Below, in pieces: positions 19,850 through 33,704 of a stretch of DNA of 64,000 nucleotides; position 1 is the stretch's first letter, and every line of letters starts with the position of its first letter. The translations under genes and the position numbers were made by a program. Origin of the DNA: Bacteroidota bacterium (GTDB lineage: Bacteria > Bacteroidota > Bacteroidia > Bacteroidales > JAGNHN01); the NCBI GenBank assembly GCA_022710185.1, contig JAKLHK010000002.1:1-64000 (forward strand), written 5' to 3'. The notes under the pieces were generated by a model that saw only the letters and a list, made by a program, of their open reading frames with translations, searched no databases and had not been told where the DNA came from.

Positions 19850-21328
19850 CTATTTGTACCGGATCAGGGACCGCAGGGAGAACCCTTTTCCGTAGTATAG
19901 GCGGTGCAGCTTCAGCCAGAGTCCCGTGCGACGGAGGTAACGGAACACCAAGAGCAGCCCAACGGAATACATCAGCCGGATGCGCTTGCCCTTATACGTA
20001 CTTCCCCGTAAACCCCTGAACTGAAAGTGGGTGGTTTGCCGGCCGAACCGTGACATATAATGGCCATAGACCAGGGCCCCATCCCTGGACAGGGGAGGAA
20101 GGTCCGGGTAGTCGATCAGGGCAACCAACGCATCGAAGGAATCCGGGCGGTAAACACTCCCCAGGTTTTCGTAGAATGCCCTTCCATAAAGTATGGAAGG
20201 ACGGCCCCAGAAGGCCGCTTCTATCCCCGTCGATGAGCCGAAAGTGATCACCTTCTCACAGGCATCGATCAGTTTGTAGGTGCTGATCTTTGAATCCGGC
20301 GGAATGATGGTCAGGTTGGGGAAACTCATCTTCCGGATTTCCCGCATCTGGATATTGTCCACCGTGCCGAGATTGGGGTGGATCCGGAGGTAGAAATGCA
20401 GGTCGTTTCTGTCCCTGAAATGGTTCAGAATTTGTCGGATAGCCTCATTCTGAAACTCATACAACGGGGTTTTCCATTCCGGCACGGCCATCTGCTCATC
20501 CTGGGAGGAATTCAGCAGGGCGATATTCCTCCGTGCGGGTTGATAATCATCGGGAAGCCGCTCCTGGTCCTGATGTCGCGTGAACGAAGGCTCTATGCTT
20601 TCATCCCCCGACCGCTTCATCTCAAACCAACGGGAACCTACCCCAACCCTCTCCTCTGCATCGGTAGCCTCCCAGAGCAGGTGCATGCTTTTCTCCCTTG
20701 AGGCAATACTGTGTGGAAGGTGATTCCGGAACATTTCATAATTATTCCCTGCCCCGGACTCCAGGGTATAGAAAGGCAAGTTAACGGCCCTGGCCAGCTC
20801 CATCACGGGAAATACTTCGGCAAAACGGCCATTGAACAGATAGAGTTCATCCGGTTGATAGCTCTTGAAAATATCCCTGAAGTTCAGCAGCACGTTGATC
20901 GACTTGTGCAGTTCTACCTTGATCAGGCCGAGGTAGGGCTCCTGGATGAGGTCAAAATCACGGGTATAGGAGATCACAGAAGAGGCGACTCCCCGGCCGA
21001 CATTGATCCCTTCGAAGGAAAAGCCATAGAGATCATCCATGGAACGGAAGGGGGGCAGCGGGGCGCTGTAAGCCTCAGGATACCGCTTCAGTCGATGGAT
21101 TTCCTCTTTTCTGAGCCCTCCCTGCTTGAGCAGCGTGAGCATCCTGGACTGGCATGAGGCACAGCCCAGAACATTATGGACACGGTTGAAATAGCAGTTG
21201 TCCAGGACATTGTCGCAGAGCACCAGCATCAACTGATTTCCGGATCCCCGAAGATTCTCGATGATCTCTGCAGTTAACCCGAGCTGTTTCGAGGTTAGCC
21301 CGGTATTGGAATAGATCAGATACTTCAT
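19850..21328 (-). CDS. Capsule-polysaccharide-biosynthesis-type glycosyltransferase
   Basis: 492 residues from the ATG at 21328, which overlaps the upstream stop codon as ATGA; longer in-frame starts would lie inside the preceding gene. The fold appears to be GT-B. The C-terminal half has LNSSQDE (about 268), YLRIHPNLG (about 305), and ITFGSSTGIEAAFWGRPSILYG (about 350-372), the nucleotide-sugar-binding pattern of KpsC/KpsS-like and other capsule transferases. The N-terminal part has CASCQ with neighbouring cysteines, of unknown role. As the last gene of the nonulosonic acid operon, it may transfer the CMP-sugar product or extend the glycan. The specific donor and acceptor cannot be read from sequence. 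Confidence 0.7.
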   Translation of the reverse strand: MKYLIYSNTGLTSKQLGLTAEIIENLRGSGNQLMLVLCDNVLDNCYFNRVHNVLGCASCQSRMLTLLKQGGLRKEEIHRLKRYPEAYSAPLPPFRSMDDLYGFSFEGINVGRGVASSVISYTRDFDLIQEPYLGLIKVELHKSINVLLNFRDIFKSYQPDELYLFNGRFAEVFPVMELARAVNLPFYTLESGAGNNYEMFRNHLPHSIASREKSMHLLWEATDAEERVGVGSRWFEMKRSGDESIEPSFTRHQDQERLPDDYQPARRNIALLNSSQDEQMAVPEWKTPLYEFQNEAIRQILNHFRDRNDLHFYLRIHPNLGTVDNIQMREIRKMSFPNLTIIPPDSKISTYKLIDACEKVITFGSSTGIEAAFWGRPSILYGRAFYENLGSVYRPDSFDALVALIDYPDLPPLSRDGALVYGHYMSRFGRQTTHFQFRGLRGSTYKGKRIRLMYSVGLLLVFRYLRRTGLWLKLHRLYYGKGFSLRSLIRYK

Positions 21329-22869
21329 GACCTGCCCAGGAGCTTGTCGATGTGGAATAGCATGGCCTTGCTCAGGACTTCTATCTGTACTTCCCTTGAA
21401 ATCTCGCTCCTGGAGAACTTTTCTTCCCAGTTGGAAGCCCGCACCAGGTGTCCTTGTTGTGAAAAATAGGCCAGGTAGCGGAGAAGGTCCTTTTGAACCT
21501 CTTCGGGGCTCATCCGGATCAGCTCCTGGATATCCTTGCGGCACTCTTCCACCGAGAGCGGGCTGCGTACCGCGTGACACGGCTTGTAATAGGAGTCACC
21601 GAAGGCAATAACGGGTTTCCCGGACTTCAGCCCTTCCCATCCCAGGGTACCGGTGAGCGTGGCCACCAGCCTGGCCCGGGAGATCAGTTCGGAAGATGGA
21701 GTGTTCAGACTGACCAGGCGGATGTTGGGCACCCTCCGTAAGGTATCGTAGAAGTGGGTGTTCCGGTAGTTGGCATTGGCAATCTTGCGGTCGTTGAATT
21801 GGTTGGGATGCTCTTTCACGTACAGCATCCAGCCTTCAGGCAGGCTTTGGGCCAGCATCAGGATGGGGAACAGCTGATGGTCGAAGTCGCCGCCCAGGGG
21901 CTGACTGGTCTTCTCCGGCTGCATGTGCATGCCGAAGAAGATGAAGTCCCGATCCAGATCCGGGTCAACAGACACCTTGTTGTAGTACGCATGCAGCCGG
22001 ATCAGCTGCAGGAGGCGGGCATTGATGCTGATCCGGTAGAAGAACCGCGTCCTGATTTCGTTCAGTGAGGTGAAATGCAGGATCTCCCTTTTAAAGAGGA
22101 ATGGAAACACGCCCATAATAATATTTGCCGTGGCTTTCTTCAGATAGCGGTAGACCAGCCTGAAGTTTGCCATGGACGAACGCCCGATGAGCTTGCGCTT
22201 TTCCCTGGCGTTCGCGCGCGCGATGAACTGGCTGTACACCCCAAAATCCTGTCGCAGCGCCTCGGGAAGTGAATCCCAGATTGTCCTGGCCTCCTCATCC
22301 CGGAGAAAATCCGCGGGGATTACCGGCAATTGATGGGACAGGATGATGGAATGATTCTCAATGAAGTGGTGCTCCAGCCTCAGGATAGGGATCCTGAGCT
22401 GGCGTGCCAGGCTGTATAGCGTGAAGGAATGGTAGGAATGCGGGGTATCGAAGGTGAGCACCAGGTCAGGCTTCTGTGTAGCCAGAATATGATTGAAGTA
22501 ATTAAGGATCAGTAGATAATATTGGCGCCGTATATGTACTGAAATCGGGAAGACCGCATTGCGGTCGCTGAGCCTGAGGAAATAGTTCTCTATTGGTTTG
22601 CACTGTTCGATCCTGTCCAGGCCCAGGGTCCATGGAGTGTCGGAAAACCGGTCGATTTCCCTGGGGTAGATGAAGCGGGTGACGGGATCGATGATCGTAT
22701 CCCCTGAGGTAATCCTGGCGGTGATTTCCTGGATGCGTGAGGCTTTCCCGTGGAAATTGTATGAAGTCCCGGATATCAGATACACGAACTCACACTTCAG
22801 TTCGGTCTGAAGCTTTTCCAGCACTTCGAAATGGAATTCATGGTAAGCGTCGATGACGGCTATTTTCAT
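21325..22869 (-). CDS. Putative surface-glycan transferase, capsule-type GT-B fold
   Basis: 514 residues from the ATG at 22869 (MKIAVIDAYHEFHFEV), which overlaps the flippase stop as ATGA. It has no clear membrane segment. Landmarks: VLTFDTPHS (about 137), FIFFGMHMQPEKTSQPLGG (about 310), YVKEHPNQF (about 350), and ATLTGTLGWEGLKSGKPVIAFGDSYY (about 410-435), the pattern of a capsule-type transferase in which a Thr-Gly-Glu cluster binds the nucleotide sugar. It is distantly similar in architecture to the next gene of the operon. It probably acts on the same glycan, in the cytoplasm before export by the flippase. The family assignment is by pattern and context. Confidence 0.65.
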   Translation of the reverse strand: MKIAVIDAYHEFHFEVLEKLQTELKCEFVYLISGTSYNFHGKASRIQEITARITSGDTIIDPVTRFIYPREIDRFSDTPWTLGLDRIEQCKPIENYFLRLSDRNAVFPISVHIRRQYYLLILNYFNHILATQKPDLVLTFDTPHSYHSFTLYSLARQLRIPILRLEHHFIENHSIILSHQLPVIPADFLRDEEARTIWDSLPEALRQDFGVYSQFIARANAREKRKLIGRSSMANFRLVYRYLKKATANIIMGVFPFLFKREILHFTSLNEIRTRFFYRISINARLLQLIRLHAYYNKVSVDPDLDRDFIFFGMHMQPEKTSQPLGGDFDHQLFPILMLAQSLPEGWMLYVKEHPNQFNDRKIANANYRNTHFYDTLRRVPNIRLVSLNTPSSELISRARLVATLTGTLGWEGLKSGKPVIAFGDSYYKPCHAVRSPLSVEECRKDIQELIRMSPEEVQKDLLRYLAYFSQQGHLVRASNWEEKFSRSEISREVQIEVLSKAMLFHIDKLLGRS

Positions 22870-24314
22870 TCTTTGGTTCGTTTTAAGAGGCTGAAGAACT
22901 CCTGTCCTCCTTTTTTCCAGGCCAGGAAGGCAAGTAGGATGATCATCCCTGCGGCTAGGCCACTGCGGATCCAGGGGGATGCGCCAGTGAGCTGGTAACA
23001 ACACAGCAGGAGCAGGGTATTGGCCAGGGTGACCAGGCTAAGGTCGCGGAGGACATGCGGCATCATTTGTATGGCCAGCTTACGAATGAAGGGGAAGGCC
23101 AGGCCGATCCAGGGGGTAAGCATATACGAGAAGAAAGTGACCCAGAGCGCCACCTGAAAGCCGTAGGCCGGGATAAGGAAGATATTGAGAAGGATGCTTA
23201 CCCCAGCCGGGATAAGGATCAGCAGCGGGAGCAGACGGGTTTTCTCGTTGATGAACAAAGGCATGGAGATCACGAAATACCATACGTGGAAGCTCGCTGC
23301 GAACACGGCGATGCTTGCCAGCGGAGCAGCGACGTGCAGGGCTTCGTTCCGCACCAGCACCTGGAATACCTCCTCCATCATCAGGCTACCGCTCACGGTA
23401 CACATAAGCACGAGCAGGTAGGCCAGCCAGGAGATCCTCATGAATTTATCGAACCGGCCGCTGCGGTAATACTGCTGCAGGCGCGGGGTGAGGGCTGCCG
23501 TAACGCCAGCCACCAGGGTGAACATATAGTTGGCCATACGGTAGCTCAGGGAGTAGATGCCGATGTCGCCCACGGGCACATTCAGGCGCTCCATGATGAT
23601 GCGGTCGGAAGAACTGAGAAGGACCAGGGCCAGGGTGTAGGGGATGATAGGAACCGACACTTTCAGGCTGGCCTTGACGCGGGCCCATCGAAGACGAAGC
23701 CGTGGCCATATCCCTTCCCTGACATAGAGGAAGGGGATGAAGGAGAAATAGAAAAATGCTGCATTGACCAGGTAGGCGACAGCCCAGCCCCAGAAGCCCA
23801 GCCTGAACACCGCGATGATGAGGTATGTGGCCGCGACCGAGAGTATGGCGGCGAACAATTTACGATACGTTATGGGAAGGGCTTGCTCCCGCAGCAGGAA
23901 CAGGCGCATGGCAATGGCATTGATATTTTGAAAGAAGATGGGGGCGGAAGCGATCACCACCAGGAGCAGCTTATGTTCGAGGGGGGGGAGCACCTGGTAG
24001 ATGATGATCCCGAAGAGGATGGAGAACAGGATCCCGGCATAGTGGGATAATCCGGAAAGCACCCGCCAGGGGAAAGCGAAACGTGAACGATGGGTAAAGA
24101 AGGCATTCGTGAAGTTAACCTCCAGTCCCAGCGTAGAAATGGCCAGCCCCAGGCCGAAGTATGAGGACACGATCCCCCATATCCCGAAGTCTTCTTCCGT
24201 GAGGAAAGGGGTGATGAGGGGAAAGATGAACAACGATAGGATGGCATCCAGCCGGGGGGTGATGGAGAAAAGGAAAATGTTGAGGACAACCTTTCTATTT
24301 GAGCCTGTGGCCAA
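22866..24314 (-). CDS. Oligosaccharide flippase (Wzx-like, MOP superfamily)
   Basis: 482 residues with about 12 to 14 hydrophobic helices across the whole length, beginning NRKVVLNIFLFSITPRLDAI and LSLFIFPLITPFLTEEDFGIW, a typical start for polysaccharide-biosynthesis exporters. It would move the lipid-linked, pseudaminate-containing oligosaccharide to the periplasmic face. The start is unusual: the frame opens after a TGA at 24321-24323 and the only plausible initiator is TTG at 24314. A nearby ATG (24324) is out of frame and runs into a stop after nine codons. It has its own -7 box 24 bases upstream, though it also lies within the pse operon. Either a rare TTG start or a sequencing slip near the 5' end is possible. 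Confidence 0.85.
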   Translation of the reverse strand: MATGSNRKVVLNIFLFSITPRLDAILSLFIFPLITPFLTEEDFGIWGIVSSYFGLGLAISTLGLEVNFTNAFFTHRSRFAFPWRVLSGLSHYAGILFSILFGIIIYQVLPPLEHKLLLVVIASAPIFFQNINAIAMRLFLLREQALPITYRKLFAAILSVAATYLIIAVFRLGFWGWAVAYLVNAAFFYFSFIPFLYVREGIWPRLRLRWARVKASLKVSVPIIPYTLALVLLSSSDRIIMERLNVPVGDIGIYSLSYRMANYMFTLVAGVTAALTPRLQQYYRSGRFDKFMRISWLAYLLVLMCTVSGSLMMEEVFQVLVRNEALHVAAPLASIAVFAASFHVWYFVISMPLFINEKTRLLPLLILIPAGVSILLNIFLIPAYGFQVALWVTFFSYMLTPWIGLAFPFIRKLAIQMMPHVLRDLSLVTLANTLLLLCCYQLTGASPWIRSGLAAGMIILLAFLAWKKGGQEFFSLLKRTKE

Positions 24315-24392: not shown

Positions 24393-25442
24393 TCAGGCCT
24401 CAAACATGCCCGGCTGCAGGGGTTCACCCCGTTTCAGGTCACGGGTGGCCCGCCTCCCGAGCACTTCAGCGTAGTACCTGGGGTGCATGCCATAACCCGG
24501 CCGTATGGAGCGGACATTGTGTTCTGACAGCAGCTCTCCCGATGGTATATCTTCCACCACGAACAAGGAGCGGGAGAATACCCTTGACGACTTCACCTTC
24601 TCGCTGAGTTCGTAGGTCACCTTTCCGATGGCCAGTTCCGCTTCGCGCACAGCCTTGACCATAGCCGAAAACTCCTCTACATTGAGAGAGAAGGCGGCAT
24701 CCGGGCCGCCGATGGAGCGGTCGAGGATGAAATGCTTCTCGATGACCCGGGCACCCATGGCCACGGCGGCCACCGGAACACTGATCCCCATGGTATGGTC
24801 CGAAAGGCCGGTGACCACACCGAAGCGCTGGGCCATATCCCGTATGTTCATCAGGTTTGCCTCTTCCACCGGTGCAGGATAGGAGGAGGTGCACTTGAGC
24901 AGAACGGTCTGAGTATTACCCATGCGGTGACAGGCTTGCACAGCCAGTTCGATATCCTCGAGTGTGGCGATCCCTGTGGAAATGATCACCGGCCTGCCTT
25001 TGGATGCGACATACTCTATCAAGGGGATGTCATTGATCTCAAACGATGCGATCTTGTATGCAGGTGGATCGAAGGACTCCAGGAAGTCTACGGCGCTGCG
25101 GTCGAATGGGGAGGAGAAACATTCCAGGCCTTCCTCCCGGGCCACACGGAACAGTTCCTCATGCCACTCCCATGGGGTATAGGCTTCTTTGTACAGGTCA
25201 TACAGCACCTTCCCGTCCCATAGCGTCCCCTGCCTGATCTGGAAATACTCGTTGCGGCAATCGATGGTGATGGTATCCGCGGTATAGGTCTGGAGCTTGA
25301 TGGCATCGGCCCCCGCCTGTCTGGCTGCACGGATGGTGTCGATCGCGATATCTTTTCTTTGATTGTGGTTTGCAGATAGTTCGGCAATGATGAAACACTT
25401 GCCGTGCTGAAGCCGATGGATGAGCAGATCATTCATTTCCAT
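24393..25442 (-). CDS. pseI: Pseudaminic acid synthase
   Basis: 349 residues, full length. NeuB-family TIM barrel (FIIAELSANHNQ at about 16; DAIKLQTYTADTITID at about 45; CFSSPFD, YKIASFEI and STGIATLEDIE in order; GLSDHTMG and VIEKHFILDRSIGGPD at about 195-245) followed by a C-terminal SAF antifreeze-like domain (RSLFVVEDIPSGELLSEHNVRSIRPG). It condenses 6-deoxy-AltdiNAc with phosphoenolpyruvate. The IKLQTYTADTIT...GTLWDGKxLYDLYKEA sequence is closer to PseI than to sialic acid synthase NeuB, and the pseB, pseC and pseG neighbours agree. Starts at 25442 and 25436 are both possible; either overlaps the upstream GNAT gene. Confidence 0.93.
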   Translation of the reverse strand: MEMNDLLIHRLQHGKCFIIAELSANHNQRKDIAIDTIRAARQAGADAIKLQTYTADTITIDCRNEYFQIRQGTLWDGKVLYDLYKEAYTPWEWHEELFRVAREEGLECFSSPFDRSAVDFLESFDPPAYKIASFEINDIPLIEYVASKGRPVIISTGIATLEDIELAVQACHRMGNTQTVLLKCTSSYPAPVEEANLMNIRDMAQRFGVVTGLSDHTMGISVPVAAVAMGARVIEKHFILDRSIGGPDAAFSLNVEEFSAMVKAVREAELAIGKVTYELSEKVKSSRVFSRSLFVVEDIPSGELLSEHNVRSIRPGYGMHPRYYAEVLGRRATRDLKRGEPLQPGMFEA

Positions 25443-25896
25443 ACAAGATATAAAGAAAACAAGGGATCCCGTTCACTTCGTCCTCCTGAAGAAAGCGGAA
25501 GCCGGCACGCTCAAACGACCGGACCGAGGAAGGGTTATCCTTCTTGATATATGCCAGCACGGGCAGTTGATGTAACCCGCGAAAGTGCATGCAGGCCTGT
25601 TCTATCATCTGTTTGCCGTAACCCTGGCCCCGGGCAGCCTCATCGATGGATATTCCAATGATAGCACCTTCTTCCCCGATCTCAAACCTGACAATACCCA
25701 CTGCCGAACTTTCCTTTTCAAAGATCAGTAGAAGAGAAGATCCCGAACCAAGTCGTCGCTCCAACCACTGAAGATGTTCGGGCCAGGTGATGGCGGTGCT
25801 GTGGAACGATGCCTTTCTGACCTCCGGATCGTTGGCCCATCGGAAAAGCAATGCTGCATCCTCCGCCTTAGCATACCTGTGGTTTAACTCACTCAT
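25429..25896 (-). CDS. pseH: GNAT N-acetyltransferase, PseH-like
   Basis: 155 residues from the ATG at 25896, which overlaps the pseG stop by 8 bases; a longer frame to 25920 exists but would eat further into pseG. A GNAT fold is visible: FRWANDPEVRKASFHS near the N-terminus, IGISIDEAARGQGYGKQMI with the R/Q-x-x-G-x-G/A acetyl-CoA loop (about residue 90), and NPSSVRSFERAGF. PseH acetylates the 4-amino group of UDP-4-amino-4,6-dideoxy-AltNAc, the step between PseC and PseG. The position directly after pseG and the FRWxNDPEVR start favour this assignment over the second GNAT gene of the operon (29808-30347). Confidence 0.68.
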   Translation of the reverse strand: MSELNHRYAKAEDAALLFRWANDPEVRKASFHSTAITWPEHLQWLERRLGSGSSLLLIFEKESSAVGIVRFEIGEEGAIIGISIDEAARGQGYGKQMIEQACMHFRGLHQLPVLAYIKKDNPSSVRSFERAGFRFLQEDEVNGIPCFLYILYGNE

Positions 25897-26890
25897 GTAC
25901 CAGGGTTTTAAATAAATCACGGAACCGACCCGGTGTTTCGGTATCCATGGCCTGATTCATTGCCTCTTCCAGGCGCTGCCTTGCCCATCCGTCCTGCCAG
26001 AGGAAAACAAGTGCCCGGGCCAGTTCATCGGCATCTATCTCCCGCAGATCCCCCATGGCAGACACCACCCTCCCCTCCATAAGTCCTTTGTAAAGGTACT
26101 TCTGATTTACTGCTGTATAGCCAACAATAGAAGGCAAGCGGGATGAGATGGCCTCCAGGGCAAGGGTGCTTGCAGGGAAAAGACCCACGGCGCTGCGGGC
26201 CATTTCCTCATGCATCGCCAGACTGTCAAGACGACCTAAGAACTCAAATCGATGATCATTACGGAATGAAGCCGCCAGTTCCTCGCTGACAATACCTGCT
26301 ACATGATACCGGAGGGCTGCAGAGGTGTCCGCCAATGCGTTGAGCAGGCGGAAGAGGAGGTCGTCCTGAATGGATCCTCCCAGGGAAATCAAGACCTGGT
26401 CTGATTTGCGGTCCAAGGCACCGGCACCTCCCCTGAAGACGCTCCTGAGCATGGCATACTTCATCCCGAGAAATAGCCGGGTATACGCTTCGCATGAATA
26501 ATCCTCAGGACGAATGCCCCCGGCATGATTGATAACTGCATCTGCCACGAAGTGCCGGTCGGCCAAATCGTCGATACATACCAGGAGGCACCCTTTCCCC
26601 CGTATCTTCCGTTGATACTCTGTGTCAAAAAAATAGTTATCGAGGATAACTACCTCATCACCCTGCAAGCGTCCCAGAAATTCATCAAAATGGGAATTAT
26701 CCCCCGCAAGTGGATACCATTGATCTACAATGGCCGACATCTCCCGGACCTGGAACTCAGAGGGGCTGGTAGTGAAGAAAACCATGGGGAAGTCCTCTTT
26801 CAGCATTTCAGCTACGGCCAATGAGCGCATGAAATGACCCAGACCGATCTCCGGACCGGCATCCGCACGGAATACCAGGGTTCTCCTCAC
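25889..26890 (-). CDS. pseG: UDP-2,4-diacetamido-2,4,6-trideoxy-beta-L-altropyranose hydrolase
   Basis: 333 residues. GT-B-like fold related to MurG. Signature elements: FRADAGPEIGLGHFMRSLAVAEML (residues 7-30), where the Gly-His of GLGHFMR is the catalytic His region; ILDNYFFD and CIDDLADRHFVADAVINH (about 95-120); LISLGGSIQDD (about 165); and FPASTLALEAISSRLPSIVG (about 235-255). PseG cleaves the UDP-sugar to the free 6-deoxy-AltdiNAc used by PseI. It starts 10 bases after the fusion gene ends and overlaps the following pseH-like gene by 8 bases. Confidence 0.92.
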   Translation of the reverse strand: MRRTLVFRADAGPEIGLGHFMRSLAVAEMLKEDFPMVFFTTSPSEFQVREMSAIVDQWYPLAGDNSHFDEFLGRLQGDEVVILDNYFFDTEYQRKIRGKGCLLVCIDDLADRHFVADAVINHAGGIRPEDYSCEAYTRLFLGMKYAMLRSVFRGGAGALDRKSDQVLISLGGSIQDDLLFRLLNALADTSAALRYHVAGIVSEELAASFRNDHRFEFLGRLDSLAMHEEMARSAVGLFPASTLALEAISSRLPSIVGYTAVNQKYLYKGLMEGRVVSAMGDLREIDADELARALVFLWQDGWARQRLEEAMNQAMDTETPGRFRDLFKTLVHE

Positions 26891-26900
26891 AGTGACGGTG

Positions 26901-28955
26901 TTAGTTCAAACGCTTGAAACCCCCATGGCATACCGGGCCCTTCAGTTCCTTCATCACGTCCTTACCCTCTTCGAACTCCCTGATCCGGTTGAACAGCCCA
27001 TCGAGAGCCTGATAGTACCCTTCCAATACTGCTGGGGTATGCTCAGTGCAAACGTAGATGCTGTTCCCTGCCAGATAGCCCTTGGCAAGCATCTCCTGGG
27101 TAATGAAAGTCTTGTATGCCAGATTATTGGGACTATTGAAGCTAAAACCGGCCAAGGCAGGGATTCCCCACTGGGATATGCTTAATCCATGCCGGTCAGC
27201 CAGCTGCTGCCACTGGGCCTTGATGGAGAGGCCGGTGGCCGTGATCGTCTCCCAGGACCTGACCCTCTCCATAACATCAAGCGTTGCCAATGCTGCGCTT
27301 GGCCCGATCCTTTCTGTCCAGAAGGTACTGCTGATGAACGTCTTCTGGGCTGCCTCCATCACGCTCCGCCGGCCGATGGTCCCTGTGATGGCGTAACCGT
27401 TGCCGAGGGCCTTGCCGAACAGCGCCATGTCGGGCTCCACGCCATAGATCTTGTGCAAACCACCGAACGACTGGCGGAACCCGGAGGTACACTCGTCGAA
27501 GATGAGCACAATGCCGCGCTCGGTGGCCAACTGCCTGACCTTATGCAGGAAATTATCCTCCGGCCCCATGTTGCGGGAGACCTCCATCTTGATGACCCCA
27601 ACATTGTGGATATCCACTACCGACAGTAGCTCCTCATAATTATTGTAATTGAAGGGGATCACCGAACCGCGGAGGTTGGCAGGAACCCCTGCCGGATCGA
27701 GGCCCGGCAGCAAGTGACCAGCAAGGTTCTGTTCATCGCCCAGGTTCGCGGCGAGGTACCAGTCGTGCCAGCCATGATACCCGCAGATGGCCACCTTGTC
27801 GCGGCCCGATGCGGCCCTGGCAATGCGGATGGCCACGGCATTGGCCTCGCCCCCGGTGCGGGCAAAGCGTGCCATCTCGGCCCAGGGGTGCAGCTCGATG
27901 AGGCGCTCCGCCAGCCGCACTTCCTCCGGACAATTGAAGGTGGACATATTTCCGGCCTTCACGGTCCGCAGCACGGCGGCATCCACCTCTTCATGCCCGT
28001 ATCCGAGGGTATTGGTACCTATGCCCATGATCGACACATCGGTGTATTCCCTCCCGTCGAGATCCCAGACCTTGCAGCCTTTGGCCTTGCTGAAATAGGC
28101 CGGCCACTGGTCCGGAAGGAACATCTCCGGGCGTTTCGAGAGCAGCATGGTGCCTCCCGGGATGAGCTGCTTGGCTTTCTTGTATAGCTCCTGCCCCTTA
28201 CCGGTACCCTCCAGCGCATTCCAATACCCTTCATTCCTCGAATATTGCTGGGTAAGCGAGCTCAGGTCCGGGCGTTCCTGCAGCATGTGGACATAATCCA
28301 TCCAGGGCCTGTCAGTACCCAGTGTTTCAACCAGGGTGCGGATCACTTCATAGTCCTCGGGCTTGTCGATGGTCAGTCTGACGAAGGAATAGTCCGCCTC
28401 ATTCTTCAGGCAATCGGATGTAAACAAGGCACCCCCATTGAAGGAGGAGTTGCGCCAGATGTATGGGGTTACGTGTTCCCGGTCCGATTTCTCTGTGACT
28501 TCCTGCATGGCCTTCTCCAGTGCGGAGAACTTGAACACCTCAACATCGAGGCCGTCGGGATAGGTGGTAAGCAGGGTATTTGATGCATAGTCCAGGTCGT
28601 GCTCCAGGGCAAAGCGGATGACCTGGTCCACGACTTCGGCGTCGATCAGGGGACAGTCGGAGGTAAAGCGCACGACCCAGTCGGGCTGCTCAGGCGCAGC
28701 CGTTTCGTAGAAACGCTCCAGGACATTGTCAATGGATCCCTTATGGGCGGCGATGCCCAGTTTGGCGGCTACATCCACGATGCGATCTGCTTCCGGTTCC
28801 CGCGTGGTCGCCACCTTGATCTTATTGATCATGTCAGAGCGCTGTATCCTTTTCAGATGTAGCTCCAGCAGGGTCATCCCGGACACGGTCTTCATGATCT
28901 TTTCAGGGAAGCGGGTAGAGCCAAGCCGTGCTTGGGTAATGGCCAGTATATTCAT
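26901..28955 (-). CDS. Cytidylyltransferase (SpsF/PseF-like)-class III aminotransferase fusion
   Basis: 684 residues from the ATG at 28955, two bases after the upstream stop (an overlapping GTG at 28961 is the alternative). Domain 1 (about 1-240) is a nucleotidyltransferase: ILAITQARLGSTRFPEKIM, VRFTSDCPLIDAEVVDQVI and HVTPYIW, closest in pattern to SpsF-type CMP-sugar synthetases. Domain 2 (about 255-684) is a PLP class III aminotransferase of glutamate-1-semialdehyde type: RTGGEANAVAIRIARA, CGYHGWHDWY, FDECTSGFRQ, and FGKALGNGYAITG with the PLP lysine. No separate pseF exists in the operon, so domain 1 is the candidate CMP-pseudaminate synthetase. What the aminotransferase does is not settled by the sequence. 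Confidence 0.85.
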   Translation of the reverse strand: MNILAITQARLGSTRFPEKIMKTVSGMTLLELHLKRIQRSDMINKIKVATTREPEADRIVDVAAKLGIAAHKGSIDNVLERFYETAAPEQPDWVVRFTSDCPLIDAEVVDQVIRFALEHDLDYASNTLLTTYPDGLDVEVFKFSALEKAMQEVTEKSDREHVTPYIWRNSSFNGGALFTSDCLKNEADYSFVRLTIDKPEDYEVIRTLVETLGTDRPWMDYVHMLQERPDLSSLTQQYSRNEGYWNALEGTGKGQELYKKAKQLIPGGTMLLSKRPEMFLPDQWPAYFSKAKGCKVWDLDGREYTDVSIMGIGTNTLGYGHEEVDAAVLRTVKAGNMSTFNCPEEVRLAERLIELHPWAEMARFARTGGEANAVAIRIARAASGRDKVAICGYHGWHDWYLAANLGDEQNLAGHLLPGLDPAGVPANLRGSVIPFNYNNYEELLSVVDIHNVGVIKMEVSRNMGPEDNFLHKVRQLATERGIVLIFDECTSGFRQSFGGLHKIYGVEPDMALFGKALGNGYAITGTIGRRSVMEAAQKTFISSTFWTERIGPSAALATLDVMERVRSWETITATGLSIKAQWQQLADRHGLSISQWGIPALAGFSFNSPNNLAYKTFITQEMLAKGYLAGNSIYVCTEHTPAVLEGYYQALDGLFNRIREFEEGKDVMKELKGPVCHGGFKRLN

Positions 28956-28957
28956 AA

Positions 28958-29815
28958 TCACCAGTTTTTAGGATATAGAAGCTCAGTATCGGTTACACGT
29001 ATTTGATTGACCTTTTCAATCAGGTCTTTCGGCAAGCTTTTACCGGGGCTCAAGCGGTGGTCTTCCAGCTGCTGGCGGGAATCCACACCAATGACCACTT
29101 CAGCAATGTCCTCCTGCTGAAGCACATAGTGGAGTGCCAATTGCTGGATCGGCACATCATAGGCACGGGCCAGCCGGTGAATCTCCTCCAGCCAGGGCCG
29201 CAAGGGCAGGAGCCTGGCAGGGATCTTATCCAAAGGAAGGAAGAACAGGCCCTGGAGGTAGACCGACCGGGCCTGGACGCTCACCCTCTGCTCATGGGCC
29301 CTGGCGAGGCACTCCCCGCGCTGGGTCCGGTTATCGAGCATATTGAAGGGAATCTGCACCACATCTACCCATCCTGCGTCCAGCACTGCTCGGAACTCCT
29401 CATTCCCGTATACCGAGACGCCGATGAACCTGATGAGGCCATCCTGCTTCAATTGGGCCAGCTCATCCCTTAGCTCAGGCCAGGCCATGAAATCAGCGAA
29501 ACTATGGTAGAAATACACATGGAAGGCTGGGATTCCCAATAGCCCAAGGGAACGCAGCAGGTGATCCTTCAATTGACCGGGATGGCCCTTGAACTTGGAG
29601 TTGATCTGAAAACGGCCGGGATGAAGGCGGTTATAATTCCCCAGGACTTCGACAGCTGTCCCATAGGCGTCGGCTGTATCCAGGCAACGGATCCCCTGGA
29701 AAAAGGCCTGATCGAGTATCGCACCAACCTCGGATTCGGAAGGCTTACCGGCCTCGTTGCTGATGCCGTAGTCCAATCCGAACTGAACAGTTCCCAATAC
29801 CAGTCGTTCACTCAT
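28958..29815 (-). CDS. Aldo/keto reductase
   Basis: 285 residues, (beta/alpha)8 NADPH-dependent oxidoreductase. Family marks: LVLGTVQFGLDYGISN at the N-terminus, FQGIRCLDTADAYGTA with the catalytic Asp and Tyr (about 40-52), KFKG with the lysine (about 74), FYHSFADF replacing the usual His region (about 104), and VVIGVDSRQQLEDH at the cofactor-binding end (about 240). It sits between the RimL-like GNAT gene (overlap 8 bases) and the fusion gene. In nonulosonic acid loci such reductases are suspected of making derivatives of the sugar; its substrate here is an inference from context only. Confidence 0.85.
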   Translation of the reverse strand: MSERLVLGTVQFGLDYGISNEAGKPSESEVGAILDQAFFQGIRCLDTADAYGTAVEVLGNYNRLHPGRFQINSKFKGHPGQLKDHLLRSLGLLGIPAFHVYFYHSFADFMAWPELRDELAQLKQDGLIRFIGVSVYGNEEFRAVLDAGWVDVVQIPFNMLDNRTQRGECLARAHEQRVSVQARSVYLQGLFFLPLDKIPARLLPLRPWLEEIHRLARAYDVPIQQLALHYVLQQEDIAEVVIGVDSRQQLEDHRLSPGKSLPKDLIEKVNQIRVTDTELLYPKNW

Positions 29816-30347
29816 CGTCTATCATCGGGTTAAACATCGCCATGCGAACGATATTGCAGTATTTTCCCTGATACAAGCCATGCCGTTTGTACACCCCCTC
29901 GGTTTCGAAACCCAGCTTTCGGTACAACCCATAGGCTCCGGCATTATCCTCCACTACGCCCAGGGTAATCTTCCTGAGCATTACCTCCTGGAAACAAAAA
30001 TCCAGGATACGCCGGGTCGCTTCATGCGCATAGCCTTTCCCCCACTCCGCGCGTTCCCCCATCATAATGCCGTATTCTGCAAAGCCATGCTTCCAGTTTA
30101 CCGGATCGATCTTGATGTTGCCGATATGCTTGCCATTCTCCTTCAGATGGATCGCCCAGAACAGGATCTCCGTCCGTTCCACGCCTTCCAGGTAATCACG
30201 GAGCATATCGAGGGTATAGTTTCCCCCGGTTTCCAGGTAGCGGTATACCTCCGGGTCGTTAAGCCATCCGACATACTGATCCGTACAATGACCCAGTCCA
30301 AGGGGTTTATACATCAGACGGGGTGATTCCAGGGCAGGTGCTTTCAT
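29808..30347 (-). CDS. GNAT N-acetyltransferase, RimJ/RimL type
   Basis: 179 residues. Start ATG at 30347 overlaps the pseC stop as ATGA. Typical RimJ/RimL-like acetyltransferase: YVGWLNDPEVYRYLETG, HIGNIKIDPVNWKHGFAEYGIMMG, EWGKGYAHEATRRILDF carrying the acetyl-CoA loop, and LRKITLGVVEDNAGAYGLYRKLGF. It is the second acetyltransferase of the operon. It could perform the PseH step or add a further N-acyl group to the finished sugar, as happens with 5- or 7-N-acyl variants of pseudaminic and legionaminic acid. Sequence alone does not decide. Confidence 0.85.
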   Translation of the reverse strand: MKAPALESPRLMYKPLGLGHCTDQYVGWLNDPEVYRYLETGGNYTLDMLRDYLEGVERTEILFWAIHLKENGKHIGNIKIDPVNWKHGFAEYGIMMGERAEWGKGYAHEATRRILDFCFQEVMLRKITLGVVEDNAGAYGLYRKLGFETEGVYKRHGLYQGKYCNIVRMAMFNPMIDDE

Positions 30348-31498
30348 GCAGGGAGATATTCGAGTACTCGGTTAATAACAAATTCCTGCTCCTCCTCTGT
30401 GTGTGCAGGATACATGGGCAGGCTGAGGCACTGAGTGTAATAGGCTTCGGCTATGGGGAGGTCGCCGGGCTTCCAGCCGTACTGCCGGTAATAGGGTTGC
30501 AGGTGGACCGGGATATAATGCACCTGGGCCAGGATGCCGTGGCGGCGAAGGTGGTCGTACAGTCCGGCCCGGTCGGGTGACTGGATGACATAAAGGTGGA
30601 AGGCGTGAAAAACGGAAGCATCCCGCCAGGGCAGGTGTAGGGATTTACCGGCAAAGGCATCGTCGTAGCGGCGGGCGATGGCCTGACGACGACTGAGCCC
30701 CTGGGCGGCGCGTTCGAGCTGACTGATGCCGAGAGCGGCCTGAAAGTCGGTCAATCGGTAATTGTATCCCAATTCCTGCATCTCATAATACCAGGGGCCG
30801 TGGTTATCCTGCATCAGGGCCGGATCCTTGGTGATTCCGTGGGTCCGGAGCAGCATCAGTTTTTCATAGAGCGCCTGGTCATTGGTGGTGATCATCCCGC
30901 CTTCCCCGGTAGCAATATGCTTCACCGGATGGAAGGAGAAGATGGCCAGTTCGGCATACTTTCCGTTCCCGCAGTGCTGCGCGTTGCCCGAACTGTCCGT
31001 GAAATACCCCCCGGGAGCATGGCAGGCGTCCTCGAGGATCCATAATCCGTATCGGTCCGCCAGTTCACGGAAGCGTTCCAGGTCGGCCGGGTAGCCGGCA
31101 AAGTCTACCGGCACTATGCCCTGATAGGTCCCCGGGGGGCTTGACTGCAACAGGTGCTCCACTGTATTGGGGTCGAGCAGGTAGGTGTGCGGGTCGATAT
31201 CGGCGAACACCACTTCTCCCCCGCAATAGCGTATGCAGTTGGCACTGGCGGCAAAGGTAATGGGGCTGGTAATGACCTTATCGCCAGGCTTCACCCCCAG
31301 GGCCAGGGCGCTGAGGTGGAGGGCCGCGGTGCCATTGGCCACGGCCACGGCGTATCGGCTCCCGATCATGGAGGCAAAGGCCTCTTCAAAACGATGGATC
31401 TCCGGTCCCTGGGTAAGGTAATCGCTTTGCAGGACCCGGGCGACAGCCTTCAGGTCCTCATCCGTTATGGTCTGCCTGCCGTAAGGAATGATCTTCAT
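30344..31498 (-). CDS. pseC: UDP-4-amino-4,6-dideoxy-N-acetyl-beta-L-altrosamine transaminase
   Basis: 384 residues from the ATG at 31498 (MKIIPYGRQTITDEDL), overlapping the pseB stop as ATGA; longer frames would run inside pseB. DegT/DnrJ/EryC1-type PLP aminotransferase: YAVAVANGTAALHLSALALG (about 47-66), TSPITFAASANCIRYCGG, ILEDACHAPGG with the cofactor Asp (about 160), FSFHPVKHIATGEGG with the PLP lysine (about 190), and GYNYRLTDFQAALG. It aminates the 4-keto product of PseB. The assignment as PseC rests on its exact place behind pseB. Confidence 0.92.
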   Translation of the reverse strand: MKIIPYGRQTITDEDLKAVARVLQSDYLTQGPEIHRFEEAFASMIGSRYAVAVANGTAALHLSALALGVKPGDKVITSPITFAASANCIRYCGGEVVFADIDPHTYLLDPNTVEHLLQSSPPGTYQGIVPVDFAGYPADLERFRELADRYGLWILEDACHAPGGYFTDSSGNAQHCGNGKYAELAIFSFHPVKHIATGEGGMITTNDQALYEKLMLLRTHGITKDPALMQDNHGPWYYEMQELGYNYRLTDFQAALGISQLERAAQGLSRRQAIARRYDDAFAGKSLHLPWRDASVFHAFHLYVIQSPDRAGLYDHLRRHGILAQVHYIPVHLQPYYRQYGWKPGDLPIAEAYYTQCLSLPMYPAHTEEEQEFVINRVLEYLPA

Positions 31499-32511
31499 AC
31501 GATCGGATTGAAGCCGGGATCCAGATGTTCGCGGATCAGGGTGCGCAGGGCCTGGGCATCGAGCCACTCGCTGTTGGTCCCGGAATTGTATTTGAACCCC
31601 GGGCTAACGGGGCGGGCGTCGTAATGTTGCAGGTAAACCTCCTTTTGGGCATCAGAGGGCAGGATAGCATAATAGCGGTCGAACTCAATGGTGTTGTAGG
31701 AATCGCTTTCCGTAATCATTTCCTCGTGGAGCTTCTCCCCGGGACGTATGCCGATATCCACCAGACGGGCGCCGGGAGCAATGGCCTCCGCTACGTCCAG
31801 GATTCGGTAGGAAGGGATCTTGGGAACGAAAATCTCCCGTCCCAGCCCGTGCTGGATAGCCCAAAGGACCATTTCCACCCCCTCCTGCAAGGAGATGTTG
31901 AAGCGCGTCATTTCACGGTGAGTGATGGGAAGCTCGCCTTCCCTGGCCTTATTCATGAAGAAGGGAATCACGGAACCTCTGGATCCCATTACATTGCCGT
32001 AGCGGACCACGGAGAACCGGAGATCCCGCTTGCCCTTGATGTTGTTGGCGGCAATGAAGAGCTTGTCGCTCACAAGCTTGGTTGCACCATACAGATTGAT
32101 CGGTGCCGCAGCCTTGTCGGTGGATAGGGCAACCACCACCTTTACGTTGTTATGCAAGGCGGCATCAATGATGTTCTCCGCTCCCCCGATATTGGTCTTG
32201 ATGCATTCGTCGGGATTGTACTCAGCCGCGGGTACCTGTTTCAGGGCGGCGGCATGTACGATGATGTCTATCCCTTCGCAGGCCCGGGCGAGCCTGGCCT
32301 TGTCGCGCACATCCCCGATGAAATAGCGCAACCCTTTGTACTGGTCGGAGCTGTACACCTGCGACATCTCGAACTGCTTCAGCTCATCGCGGGAATAGAT
32401 CACCAGGCGGCGTATGTTGGGGTACATGCTGAGGATGGTACGGGTGAACTCTTTGCCGAACGACCCGGTGCCACCGGTGACCAGGATGGAGCTGTTCTCG
32501 TTGAGGATCAT
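31495..32511 (-). CDS. pseB: UDP-N-acetylglucosamine 4,6-dehydratase (5-inverting)
   Basis: 338 residues. Extended SDR: ILVTGGTGSFGKEF (Gly-rich NAD(P) loop, 9-22), VIYSRDELKQFEM, DVRDKARL, HAAALKQVPAAEYNP, STDKAAAPINLYGATK (catalytic Asp-Lys and Tyr-x-x-x-Lys region, about 130-146), and RYGNVMGSRGSVIPFF. The DKAAAPINLYGATK pattern is diagnostic of PseB/FlaA1. The enzyme starts pseudaminic acid synthesis from UDP-GlcNAc and is the first gene of the operon, behind a -7 box at 32573-32580. Confidence 0.94.
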   Translation of the reverse strand: MILNENSSILVTGGTGSFGKEFTRTILSMYPNIRRLVIYSRDELKQFEMSQVYSSDQYKGLRYFIGDVRDKARLARACEGIDIIVHAAALKQVPAAEYNPDECIKTNIGGAENIIDAALHNNVKVVVALSTDKAAAPINLYGATKLVSDKLFIAANNIKGKRDLRFSVVRYGNVMGSRGSVIPFFMNKAREGELPITHREMTRFNISLQEGVEMVLWAIQHGLGREIFVPKIPSYRILDVAEAIAPGARLVDIGIRPGEKLHEEMITESDSYNTIEFDRYYAILPSDAQKEVYLQHYDARPVSPGFKYNSGTNSEWLDAQALRTLIREHLDPGFNPIV

Positions 32512-32831: not shown

Positions 32832-33131
32832 TCAGGCAACGTTCTCTTTATACTTTGTGATTGAACTAAAGAGCTCTTTGTTCAGGTTGAACTGCTCTTC
32901 AATATCAAAATCATCCTGAAGCCCCAGCCAGAACTTGGCAGAATTTCCAAAGTAGTTACTGAGCCGGAGTGCCGTGTCCGCGGTAATTCTCCTTCGCCCT
33001 TTTAATATTTCACTAATCCTGGTTTGGGGGATCTTGAGGTCCTTGGAGAGTTTGTATGCTGAAATTTGGAGCGGAATCAGGAATTCCTCCATTAAGATCT
33101 CCCCGGGATGTTTGTTACTCAGTTTTTCCAT
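32832..33131 (-). CDS. higA: HigA-family antitoxin, XRE-type helix-turn-helix
   Basis: 99 residues. HigA signature HPGEILMEEFLIPLQIS (residues 8-24), then a helix-turn-helix AYKLSKDLKIPQTRISEILKGRRRITADTALRLSNYF (about 25-61), and the SAKFWLGLQDDFDIE tail. It should bind and neutralise HigB and repress the higBA promoter. The ATG at 33131 lies 13 bases beyond the last codon of the ancestral higB frame (33145). Because higB carries a nonsense codon, higA may now be an orphan repressor or an anti-addiction remnant. Confidence 0.9.
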   Translation of the reverse strand: MEKLSNKHPGEILMEEFLIPLQISAYKLSKDLKIPQTRISEILKGRRRITADTALRLSNYFGNSAKFWLGLQDDFDIEEQFNLNKELFSSITKYKENVA

Positions 33132-33144
33132 AATATCTTAATCC

Positions 33145-33423
33145 ATGATAATCAACTATTTCCACATCAAATGCTGTACCGTTCCTTTACCTGAAGACAA
33201 TCCGCCATTGCTCATTTATCCTTATGCTGTAATACCCGGATCGTTCGCCTTTCAATCTTTCCAGACGATTTGCAGGTGGAATTCTCAGGTCGGCAAGGTC
33301 AACGGCGCTATGAATCATCCTAAGCTTCCTTCTTGCCACATTCTGGATCTCGCCTGGTAACCGGGTGGATCGAATCCCGTTCCAAATCCGCTCCGTCTCC
33401 CGAGAACCGAATGTTTGAATCAT
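33145..33423 (-). pseudogene. higB: HigB-family toxin gene with in-frame TAA near the C-terminus
   Basis: The intact frame (33187-33423) gives 78 residues: MIQTFGSRETERIWNG, LPGEIQNVARRKLRMI, DLRIPPANRLERLKGE and YYSIRINEQWRIVFR, all classic RelE/HigB features. A TAA then replaces the position where the family has tryptophan. The same frame continues after it with RNGTAFDVEIVDYH, precisely the conserved last strand of HigB toxins, ending at 33145. So the gene has a nonsense change rather than a natural early end. HigB normally cleaves ribosome-associated mRNA, and the lost strand carries the conserved DYH, so activity is probably lost. Confidence 0.8.
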
Positions 33424-33434
33424 ACCTACCCTTC

Positions 33435-33447
33435 GCGTTACTAACGC
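33435..33447. promoter_or_regulatory. Palindrome upstream of higB, candidate HigA operator
   Basis: gcgtta-c-taacgc is a perfect 6-bp inverted repeat with a one-base centre, 11 bases upstream of the higB ATG (33423). Small dyads at this place are typical operators for HigA autoregulation. No other dyad of this quality is in the higBA upstream region. Confidence 0.45.
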
Positions 33448-33518
33448 CAGAGGTAAGTAATATGGTCTGAACAACCAATTAATTACATTAAAGTTTGATG
33501 CTTGGCGTGAAATTATTC

Positions 33519-33545
33519 CACGCAAAGACGCGAAGACGCAAAGAA
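33519..33545. repeat. Dispersed 27-base acgcaaag element, copy 1
   Basis: Made of three 8-base units (acgcaaag, acgcgaag, acgcaaag) plus flanking bases. All 27 bases are identical to 34747-34773. It lies in the spacer upstream of higB. Confidence 0.75.
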
Positions 33546-33557
33546 AGCGAGAAGCAA

Positions 33558-33585
33558 ACAGCGAACAGCGAACAGCGAACAGCGA
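33558..33585. repeat. 7-base tandem array acagcga (H7)
   Basis: Four perfect acagcga units at 33558, 33565, 33572 and 33579, directly following the acgcaaag element. Confidence 0.85.
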
Positions 33586-33612
33586 AAAGCAGCATCCAAT
33601 GACCCGGCACAC

Positions 33613-33704
33613 CAAGTACTCCTAACTTTAAGTACTTTAGGCACTCTAAGTACTTTAAGTACTCCTAACTTTAGGCACATTAGCTCACTTTAGGCACTCC
33701 TAAC
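33613..33704. repeat. 9-base degenerate array, actttaagt/actttaggc type
   Basis: Roughly nine units of 9 bases built from actttaagt and actttaggc variants, reaching the yihY stop codon. Related words (tttagctcactt, aggcactt) occur at 32741-32772 on the other side of higBA, so the toxin-antitoxin module is bracketed by the same repeat vocabulary. Confidence 0.55.

Follow-up and report, generated by a model that had tools for sequence, protein, structure and literature searches.

A fused cytidylyltransferase-aminotransferase in a pseudaminic acid-type operon as a candidate route to 8-amino nonulosonic acids

Described C8-modified nonulosonic acids and the operon in the window

Among the described systems closest to the locus studied here is a pair of proteins from Acinetobacter baumannii prophages, EpaA (CTP_transf_3 and Aldo_ket_red domains) and EpaB (an SDR), which convert pseudaminic acid (Pse) to 8-epi-Pse in vivo, as determined by NMR (PMC12053666). 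An 8-amino sugar, 8-amino-3,5,7,8,9-pentadeoxy-manno-nonulosonic acid, has been described from the LPS of Flexibacter (Tenacibaculum) maritimus (reviewed in PMC3210612). In the literature we searched, which was mostly outside subscription journals, no assignment of any genes to an 8-amino Pse-type sugar was found.

We analysed a 64,000-nucleotide stretch of DNA (the window), which carries a nonulosonic acid operon on its minus strand; all coordinates below refer to that strand. The gene order is pseB, pseC, a GNAT gene, an aldo/keto reductase (AKR) gene, a gene for a fused cytidylyltransferase and aminotransferase (CT-AT), pseG, a second GNAT gene and pseI; a flippase-like gene and genes for two Capsule_synth-type proteins come next. 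The inverting UDP-GlcNAc 4,6-dehydratase PseB (31495-32511; TIGR03589, 506.6 bits, cut-off 407.75), the UDP-4-amino-sugar transaminase PseC (30344-31498, start approximate, the longest ORF running from 31567; TIGR03588, 478 bits, cut-off 423.5) and the pseudaminic acid synthase PseI (24393-25442; TIGR03586, 517.8 bits, cut-off 340.25) all passed curated NCBIfam cut-offs within this one operon. No gene of the operon reached the curated cut-offs for PseG and PseH. The pseG-like UDP-sugar hydrolase (25889-26890) scored 151.2 bits with TIGR03590, slightly below the cut-off of 153.55. With the PseH model (cut-off 93.1), 41.4 bits were obtained for GNAT1, an N-acyltransferase encoded between pseC and the AKR gene (29808-30347; PF13302, 79.7 bits), and 42.1 bits for GNAT2, a PseH-like N-acetyltransferase (25429-25920; PF13302, 60.3 bits). 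These three genes are relatives by position and weak similarity, and both GNATs are, as judged from sequence, PseH-like only. The initial annotation had listed pseB, pseC, pseG, a pseH-like gene and pseI; the PseB, PseC and PseI calls hold, while PseG lies just under its cut-off and GNAT1 had gone unmentioned.

The AKR (28958-29815; PF00248, 93.2 bits) is a candidate C8 oxidoreductase. Beyond pseI, the flippase-like membrane protein (22866-24314) matched PF01943 weakly (26.3 bits, under the cut-off of 28.2), and a Capsule_synth-type protein (21325-23004; PF05159, 25.4 bits, cut-off 20) is a possible candidate for the transferase of the sugar. Several neighbouring genes overlap by a few bases, so the operon is probably co-transcribed. 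Its GC content (0.52-0.59) is close to that of the flanks (0.565 and 0.587) and gave no sign of recent transfer of the operon. Directly upstream of pseB we found a HigB-like toxin gene (33187-33615, minus strand; PF05015, 59.3 bits) and, just downstream of it, a 99-aa ORF resembling a HigA-type antitoxin (32832-33131, minus strand); this stretch has a lower GC content (0.444).

The fusion protein, the search for pseF and the spread of the fusion

The fusion gene occupies 26901-28955 and encodes 684 aa counted from the ATG at 28955; the start is either this ATG or a GTG at 28961. In the 686-aa form, Pfam placed CTP_transf_3 (PF02348) at residues 7-210 (86.5 bits, cut-off 22.6) and Aminotran_3 (PF00202) at residues 287-593 (125.6 bits, cut-off 30.5). 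The CT domain (28332-28943) contains QARLGSTRFPEK at residues 8-19 of the 684-aa form, and the PF02348 match together with this QARxGSTRxPxK-type motif identifies it as an SpsF-like cytidylyltransferase. The AT region (26904-28196, about residues 254-684), with PF00202 above its cut-off and the PLP lysine present, is a class III aminotransferase. This lysine we take to be K515, from established knowledge of the family; its codon lies at about 27413-27411, within FGKALGNG, which aligns with FGKIIGGG of a solved GSAM. The fusion scored well below the HemL glutamate-1-semialdehyde aminomutase model (TIGR00713, 178.4 bits against a cut-off of 527.3). Residues Q8, A9, R10, S13, R15, K19, D487 and K515 were invariant in an alignment of 30 fusions, which bears out the earlier statement that the PLP lysine and the nucleotidyltransferase motif are intact. 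An AlphaFold model gave a mean pLDDT of 83 and a pTM of 0.60, with low confidence at about residues 240-253 and at 268-287. The CT part matched the cytidylyltransferase 6oew, its nearest solved structure, and the AT part aligned with GSAM, FumI and gentamicin GenB3/GenB4. ORF, Pfam matches and gene order thus confirm the two-domain protein in a pse operon, with an AKR adjoining, that had been proposed at the outset.

The operon had also been described as lacking a free pseF, with a separate copy elsewhere in the genome named as grounds for refutation. None was found in the 3.28-Mb assembly (53 contigs, 92% complete), where the sole other PF02348 gene is KdsB-like; it was also the best match to the PseF model TIGR03584, at 37.6 bits against a cut-off of 205.7. 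The PseF cut-off was passed in four of 35 genomes that had been picked for carrying the AKR and CT-AT module. The fusion's CT domain probably takes the place of pseF. In two clusters (L025 and L068) a PseF gene lies together with the CT-AT gene; the two can thus coexist, and in some loci the CT domain may be something other than a plain PseF substitute. A 540-aa PF02348 match in another genome (G064) looked EpaA-like and was rejected, as its translation reads as a PseG-like protein and not as an AKR fusion.

The fusion is not confined to this operon: at least 583 relatives turned up in the genome collection, in 583 of the 587 candidate stretches listed, and often in an operon of the same kind. 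Split and CT-AKR versions occur, and a split arrangement of AKR, pseF and class III aminotransferase is already known from Aeromonas (PMC7874193). Judged by their titles, the loci kept for analysis come from Pseudomonadota, Bacteroidota, Chlorobiota, Cyanobacteriota and other groups, and many are MAGs. Strong matches to a fusion profile were obtained in nine of 295 genomes of the window's class, some of them to the AT part only. Among 60 relatives, one genome (G023) has a full-length fusion, another (G053) encodes AT and CT separately, in reverse order, and the sole same-genus genome (G001) gave a distant AT match only. The fusion is widespread and patchy, with versions in which CT and AT are adjacent genes or CT is joined to an AKR, and the patchiness suggests horizontal transfer.

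Searches of phage records with the fusion and with the AKR returned distant, generic matches only. Six IMG/VR contigs classed as viral (L103, L104, L105, L107, L109 and L110) carry AT-like genes near PseB- and PseI-like genes, some with CT-like genes, and phages may carry nonulosonic acid genes of the CT-AT kind; the contigs are possibly host DNA. A plasmid of the haloarchaeon Halorussus aquaticus (L083) has adjacent CT and AT genes, 43.8% identical to the fusion, with N-acetylneuraminate synthase-family and DegT genes nearby.

A shared slot in the operons and the proposed product

An AKR of one family was present in 67 of the analysed loci, mostly directly upstream of the CT-AT gene. Three layouts were distinguished. 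Class A, to which the window belongs, has PseB, PseC, AKR, CT-AT, PseG and PseI. Class B has PseB, AKR, CT-AT, an RmlD-like reductase and a NeuB-like synthase, with no adjoining PseC or PseG; since AKR and CT-AT are kept there, the unit is independent of the C7 amine. Class C, from Bacteroidota, has separate CT and AT genes ahead of a NeuB-like synthase, without PseC or AKR, and PseB is present in three of the four loci. No module-type AKR was found anywhere in the four class C genomes (best 72 bits, against 264-365 in four AKR-bearing genomes). Genes for formyltransferases, PIG-L deacetylases and methyltransferases often lie near CT-AT loci. In class C loci (L061, L071, L073 and L077) the CT, AT and NeuB-like synthase genes are followed by genes for a DUF218 protein and a 207-213-aa protein, the latter without a Pfam match where checked (L071). 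Five loci (L010, L027, L035, L037 and L073) have a further CT gene that forms its own clade; it lies downstream of a NeuB/PseI-like gene, near a Gfo/Idh-type gene and a PseC-like gene.

The window shares with EpaA/EpaB an SpsF-like CT and an AKR in a pseudaminic acid setting, and similar pairs occupy the same operon slot (PMC12053666). The two differ in that the CT of EpaA is fused to the AKR and partnered by an SDR, whereas in the window the fusion partner of the CT is an aminotransferase and the AKR has a gene of its own; the operon contains neither CT and AKR in one protein nor an EpaB-like SDR. A search with a CT-AKR protein (from L003) of 341 genomes belonging to the order of the genome of L036 yielded five ORFs of about 540 aa with CT and AKR by similarity. 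One of the five was confirmed by Pfam, and the three SDRs of those loci that were scanned matched adh_short_C2. In four of the five, the locus comprises PseB, PseC, CT-AKR, SDR, PseG, one acyl- or formyltransferase and PseI, with one extra gene before PseI in L157; the fifth (L154) is alike except that the gene caller kept another frame in the place of PseC. The EpaA/EpaB-like pairs thus lie between pseC and pseG, the position held in the window by the AKR and CT-AT. A third set of partners was seen in this slot in L158 and L159, namely an AKR, a Gfo/Idh-type protein, an SDR and a separate CT.

A profile was made from the AKRs of CT-AT loci alone; with it the EpaA-like AKRs scored 197-218 bits, while other AKRs from relatives of the window reached 40-68. 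The tetrad D45, Y50, K73 and H103 (0-based, trimmed row) was kept in all 80 module AKRs compared. In the AKR tree the EpaA-like AKRs formed their own clade, joined weakly to the module AKRs (60/86), and in the CT tree a branch with SH-aLRT 98, which carries a long-branch warning, parted the EpaA-like and CT-AT domains from PseF and KdsB. These comparisons rest on EpaA-like relatives rather than on the EpaA sequence itself, which the search of IMG/VR and phage records with the L003 CT-AKR did not reach (no match). In two loci (L003 and L042) a CT-AKR gene adjoins the CT-AT gene, and their AKRs nest inside the module AKRs, so the CT-AKR fusion may have arisen more than once.

By comparison with EpaA/EpaB, the most likely change is amination, and C8 is its most likely site. 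The initial annotation had taken the AKR and aminotransferase as a sign that the end product may be a modified nonulosonic acid, and the comparison upholds and narrows this. We consider it somewhat probable that the operon makes a triamino Pse derivative, CMP-activated 8-amino-8-deoxy-Pse, probably N-acylated. PseB, PseC, one GNAT, PseG and PseI would give Pse5Ac7Ac by the standard route; oxidation by the AKR would turn the hydroxyl at C8 into a ketone, the AT domain would transaminate the 8-keto sugar to 8-amino-8-deoxy-Pse, the other GNAT would probably acylate the new amine, and the CT domain would form the CMP-sugar for a surface polysaccharide. In the version of the slot with an SDR partner, the putative 8-keto sugar would instead be reduced to the epimer. 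That the AKR and AT act on the nonulosonic acid, and at C8, is inferred, as are the direction in which the AKR works, whether CMP activation comes before or after these steps, and the acyl group. AKRs usually reduce, and the oxidation proposed here runs in the opposite direction, which counts against the scheme. FumI and the GenB enzymes act on polyols or sugars whose amino group lies near a methyl or at a terminal carbon, a setting that resembles, by analogy, C8-C9 of a 9-deoxy nonulosonic acid. Of 33 AT-type operons, 12 have a GNAT gene between pseC and the AKR gene, as against none of five SDR-containing operons, and our guess is that GNAT1 of the window acylates the new amine. In total acyl- and formyltransferase counts, the excess in AT-type over SDR-type operons was not significant (p about 0.10). 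The reading of C8 amination draws on gene order, domain make-up, intact catalytic residues, the failure to find PseF, the conservation of the unit and its replacement in the slot by EpaA/EpaB-like pairs.

Other readings of the AKR and AT were weighed against these data. The AT might aminate another carbon, for example the PseB ketone (hexose C4, which becomes nonulosonic C7), with the AKR acting separately. Class C loci favour this, since they combine CT and AT with a NeuB-like synthase, PseB in three of four, and neither PseC nor a module AKR, which leaves the PseB ketone as the only obvious substrate; the AT can evidently work without the AKR there, and the C8-amination reading does not cover class C, which is its main difficulty. 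In class A operons, the window included, hexose C4 has however already been aminated by PseC, and in class B the RmlD-like reductase would consume the PseB ketone, and we regard this alternative as unlikely. That the two enzymes make or modify an N-acyl or aminoacyl substituent rather than the sugar ring would suit the unusual acyl groups common on pseudaminic acids and the acyl- and formyltransferases that cluster with the unit, but a CMP-sugar synthetase is the fusion partner or neighbour of the AT, and EpaA, in which CT and AKR are one protein, yields the 8-epimer; we find it distinctly unlikely.

A net epimerisation or amino-group shift, with no nitrogen added, has precedents in the aminomutases among GSAM relatives and in the epimerisation of C8 by the EpaA/EpaB pair. 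An SDR already serves epimerisation in the same slot, however, and an aminotransferase would be unnecessary for it, so we give this reading very little weight. Every canonical Pse step is covered in the operon, and plain Pse5Ac7Ac could be its product, with the CT in the role of PseF and with an AT and AKR that do nothing here or belong to another path. Against this, the catalytic residues of both enzymes are invariant across many phyla and the genes are kept together in most loci; we hold it to be the most improbable of the four. Returning to amination at C8, the slot as a whole resembles a unit for tailoring C8: AKR and CT are constant, and the change depends on the partner, epimerisation with an SDR and amination with an AT. 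The broader proposition, that AKR and CT-AT form a biosynthetic route to 8-amino pseudaminic acids across many phyla, within a swap-in slot where the partner (AT, SDR, or Gfo/Idh with SDR) sets the outcome, is one we put forward tentatively, a little short of even confidence.

Significance and comparison with known systems

This analysis adds the comparison that points to amination at C8 and to a tailoring slot with exchangeable partners; the fusion as such is common. If the interpretation is right, it names candidate genes for the 8-amino nonulosonic acids, an orphan class among surface sugars, and offers enzymes for making them. It would also give a rule for reading pse operons, by which the gene beside AKR and CT predicts C8 epimerisation or amination, would correct annotations of such loci as plain pseudaminic acid clusters or of the aminotransferase as HemL, and would tell mass spectrometrists which masses to seek.

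An odd residue mass indicates an odd number of nitrogens, which acetamidino or aminoacyl groups also give. A. hydrophila AH-1, cited as a strain whose flagellin bears a single nonulosonic acid (PMC7874193), has a 403-Da sugar, some of whose fragments are one mass unit off those of Pse5Ac7Ac9Ac. This fits the reading of a third nitrogen and is only suggestive, as the authors' formula is without nitrogen and AH-1 is not confirmed as subgroup IA. The Aeromonas flagellin glycosylation islands IA-IE themselves have pseC, an AKR, a cytidylyltransferase and a class III aminotransferase in the same order as the window, but as separate genes, named pseF and aminotransferase, and with a product that is not solved (PMC7874193). 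The O-antigen cluster of Legionella pneumophila serogroup 6/12 likewise contains PseB- and PseC-like genes, an oxidoreductase, a cytidylyltransferase, a GSAM-like gene and PseG; it differs in that the genes are separate and accompanied by extra HisH, HisF and LPS-biosynthesis genes (PMC3694923). In Vibrio B9-25K2 an SpsF-type CT replaces NeuA in a pse cluster, but there it forms an AKR fusion accompanied by a dehydrogenase, no aminotransferase was reported, and the product has the mass of PseAc2 (PMC7371886), as expected of an epimer. Apart from GSAM, the solved structures most closely related to the AT domain are those of FumI, an aminopentol aminotransferase, and of the gentamicin C-6' aminotransferases GenB3/GenB4; these enzymes act on other substrates and have no CT domain. 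The 8-amino sugar of Flexibacter maritimus (PMC3210612) is of the same class as the product predicted for the window.
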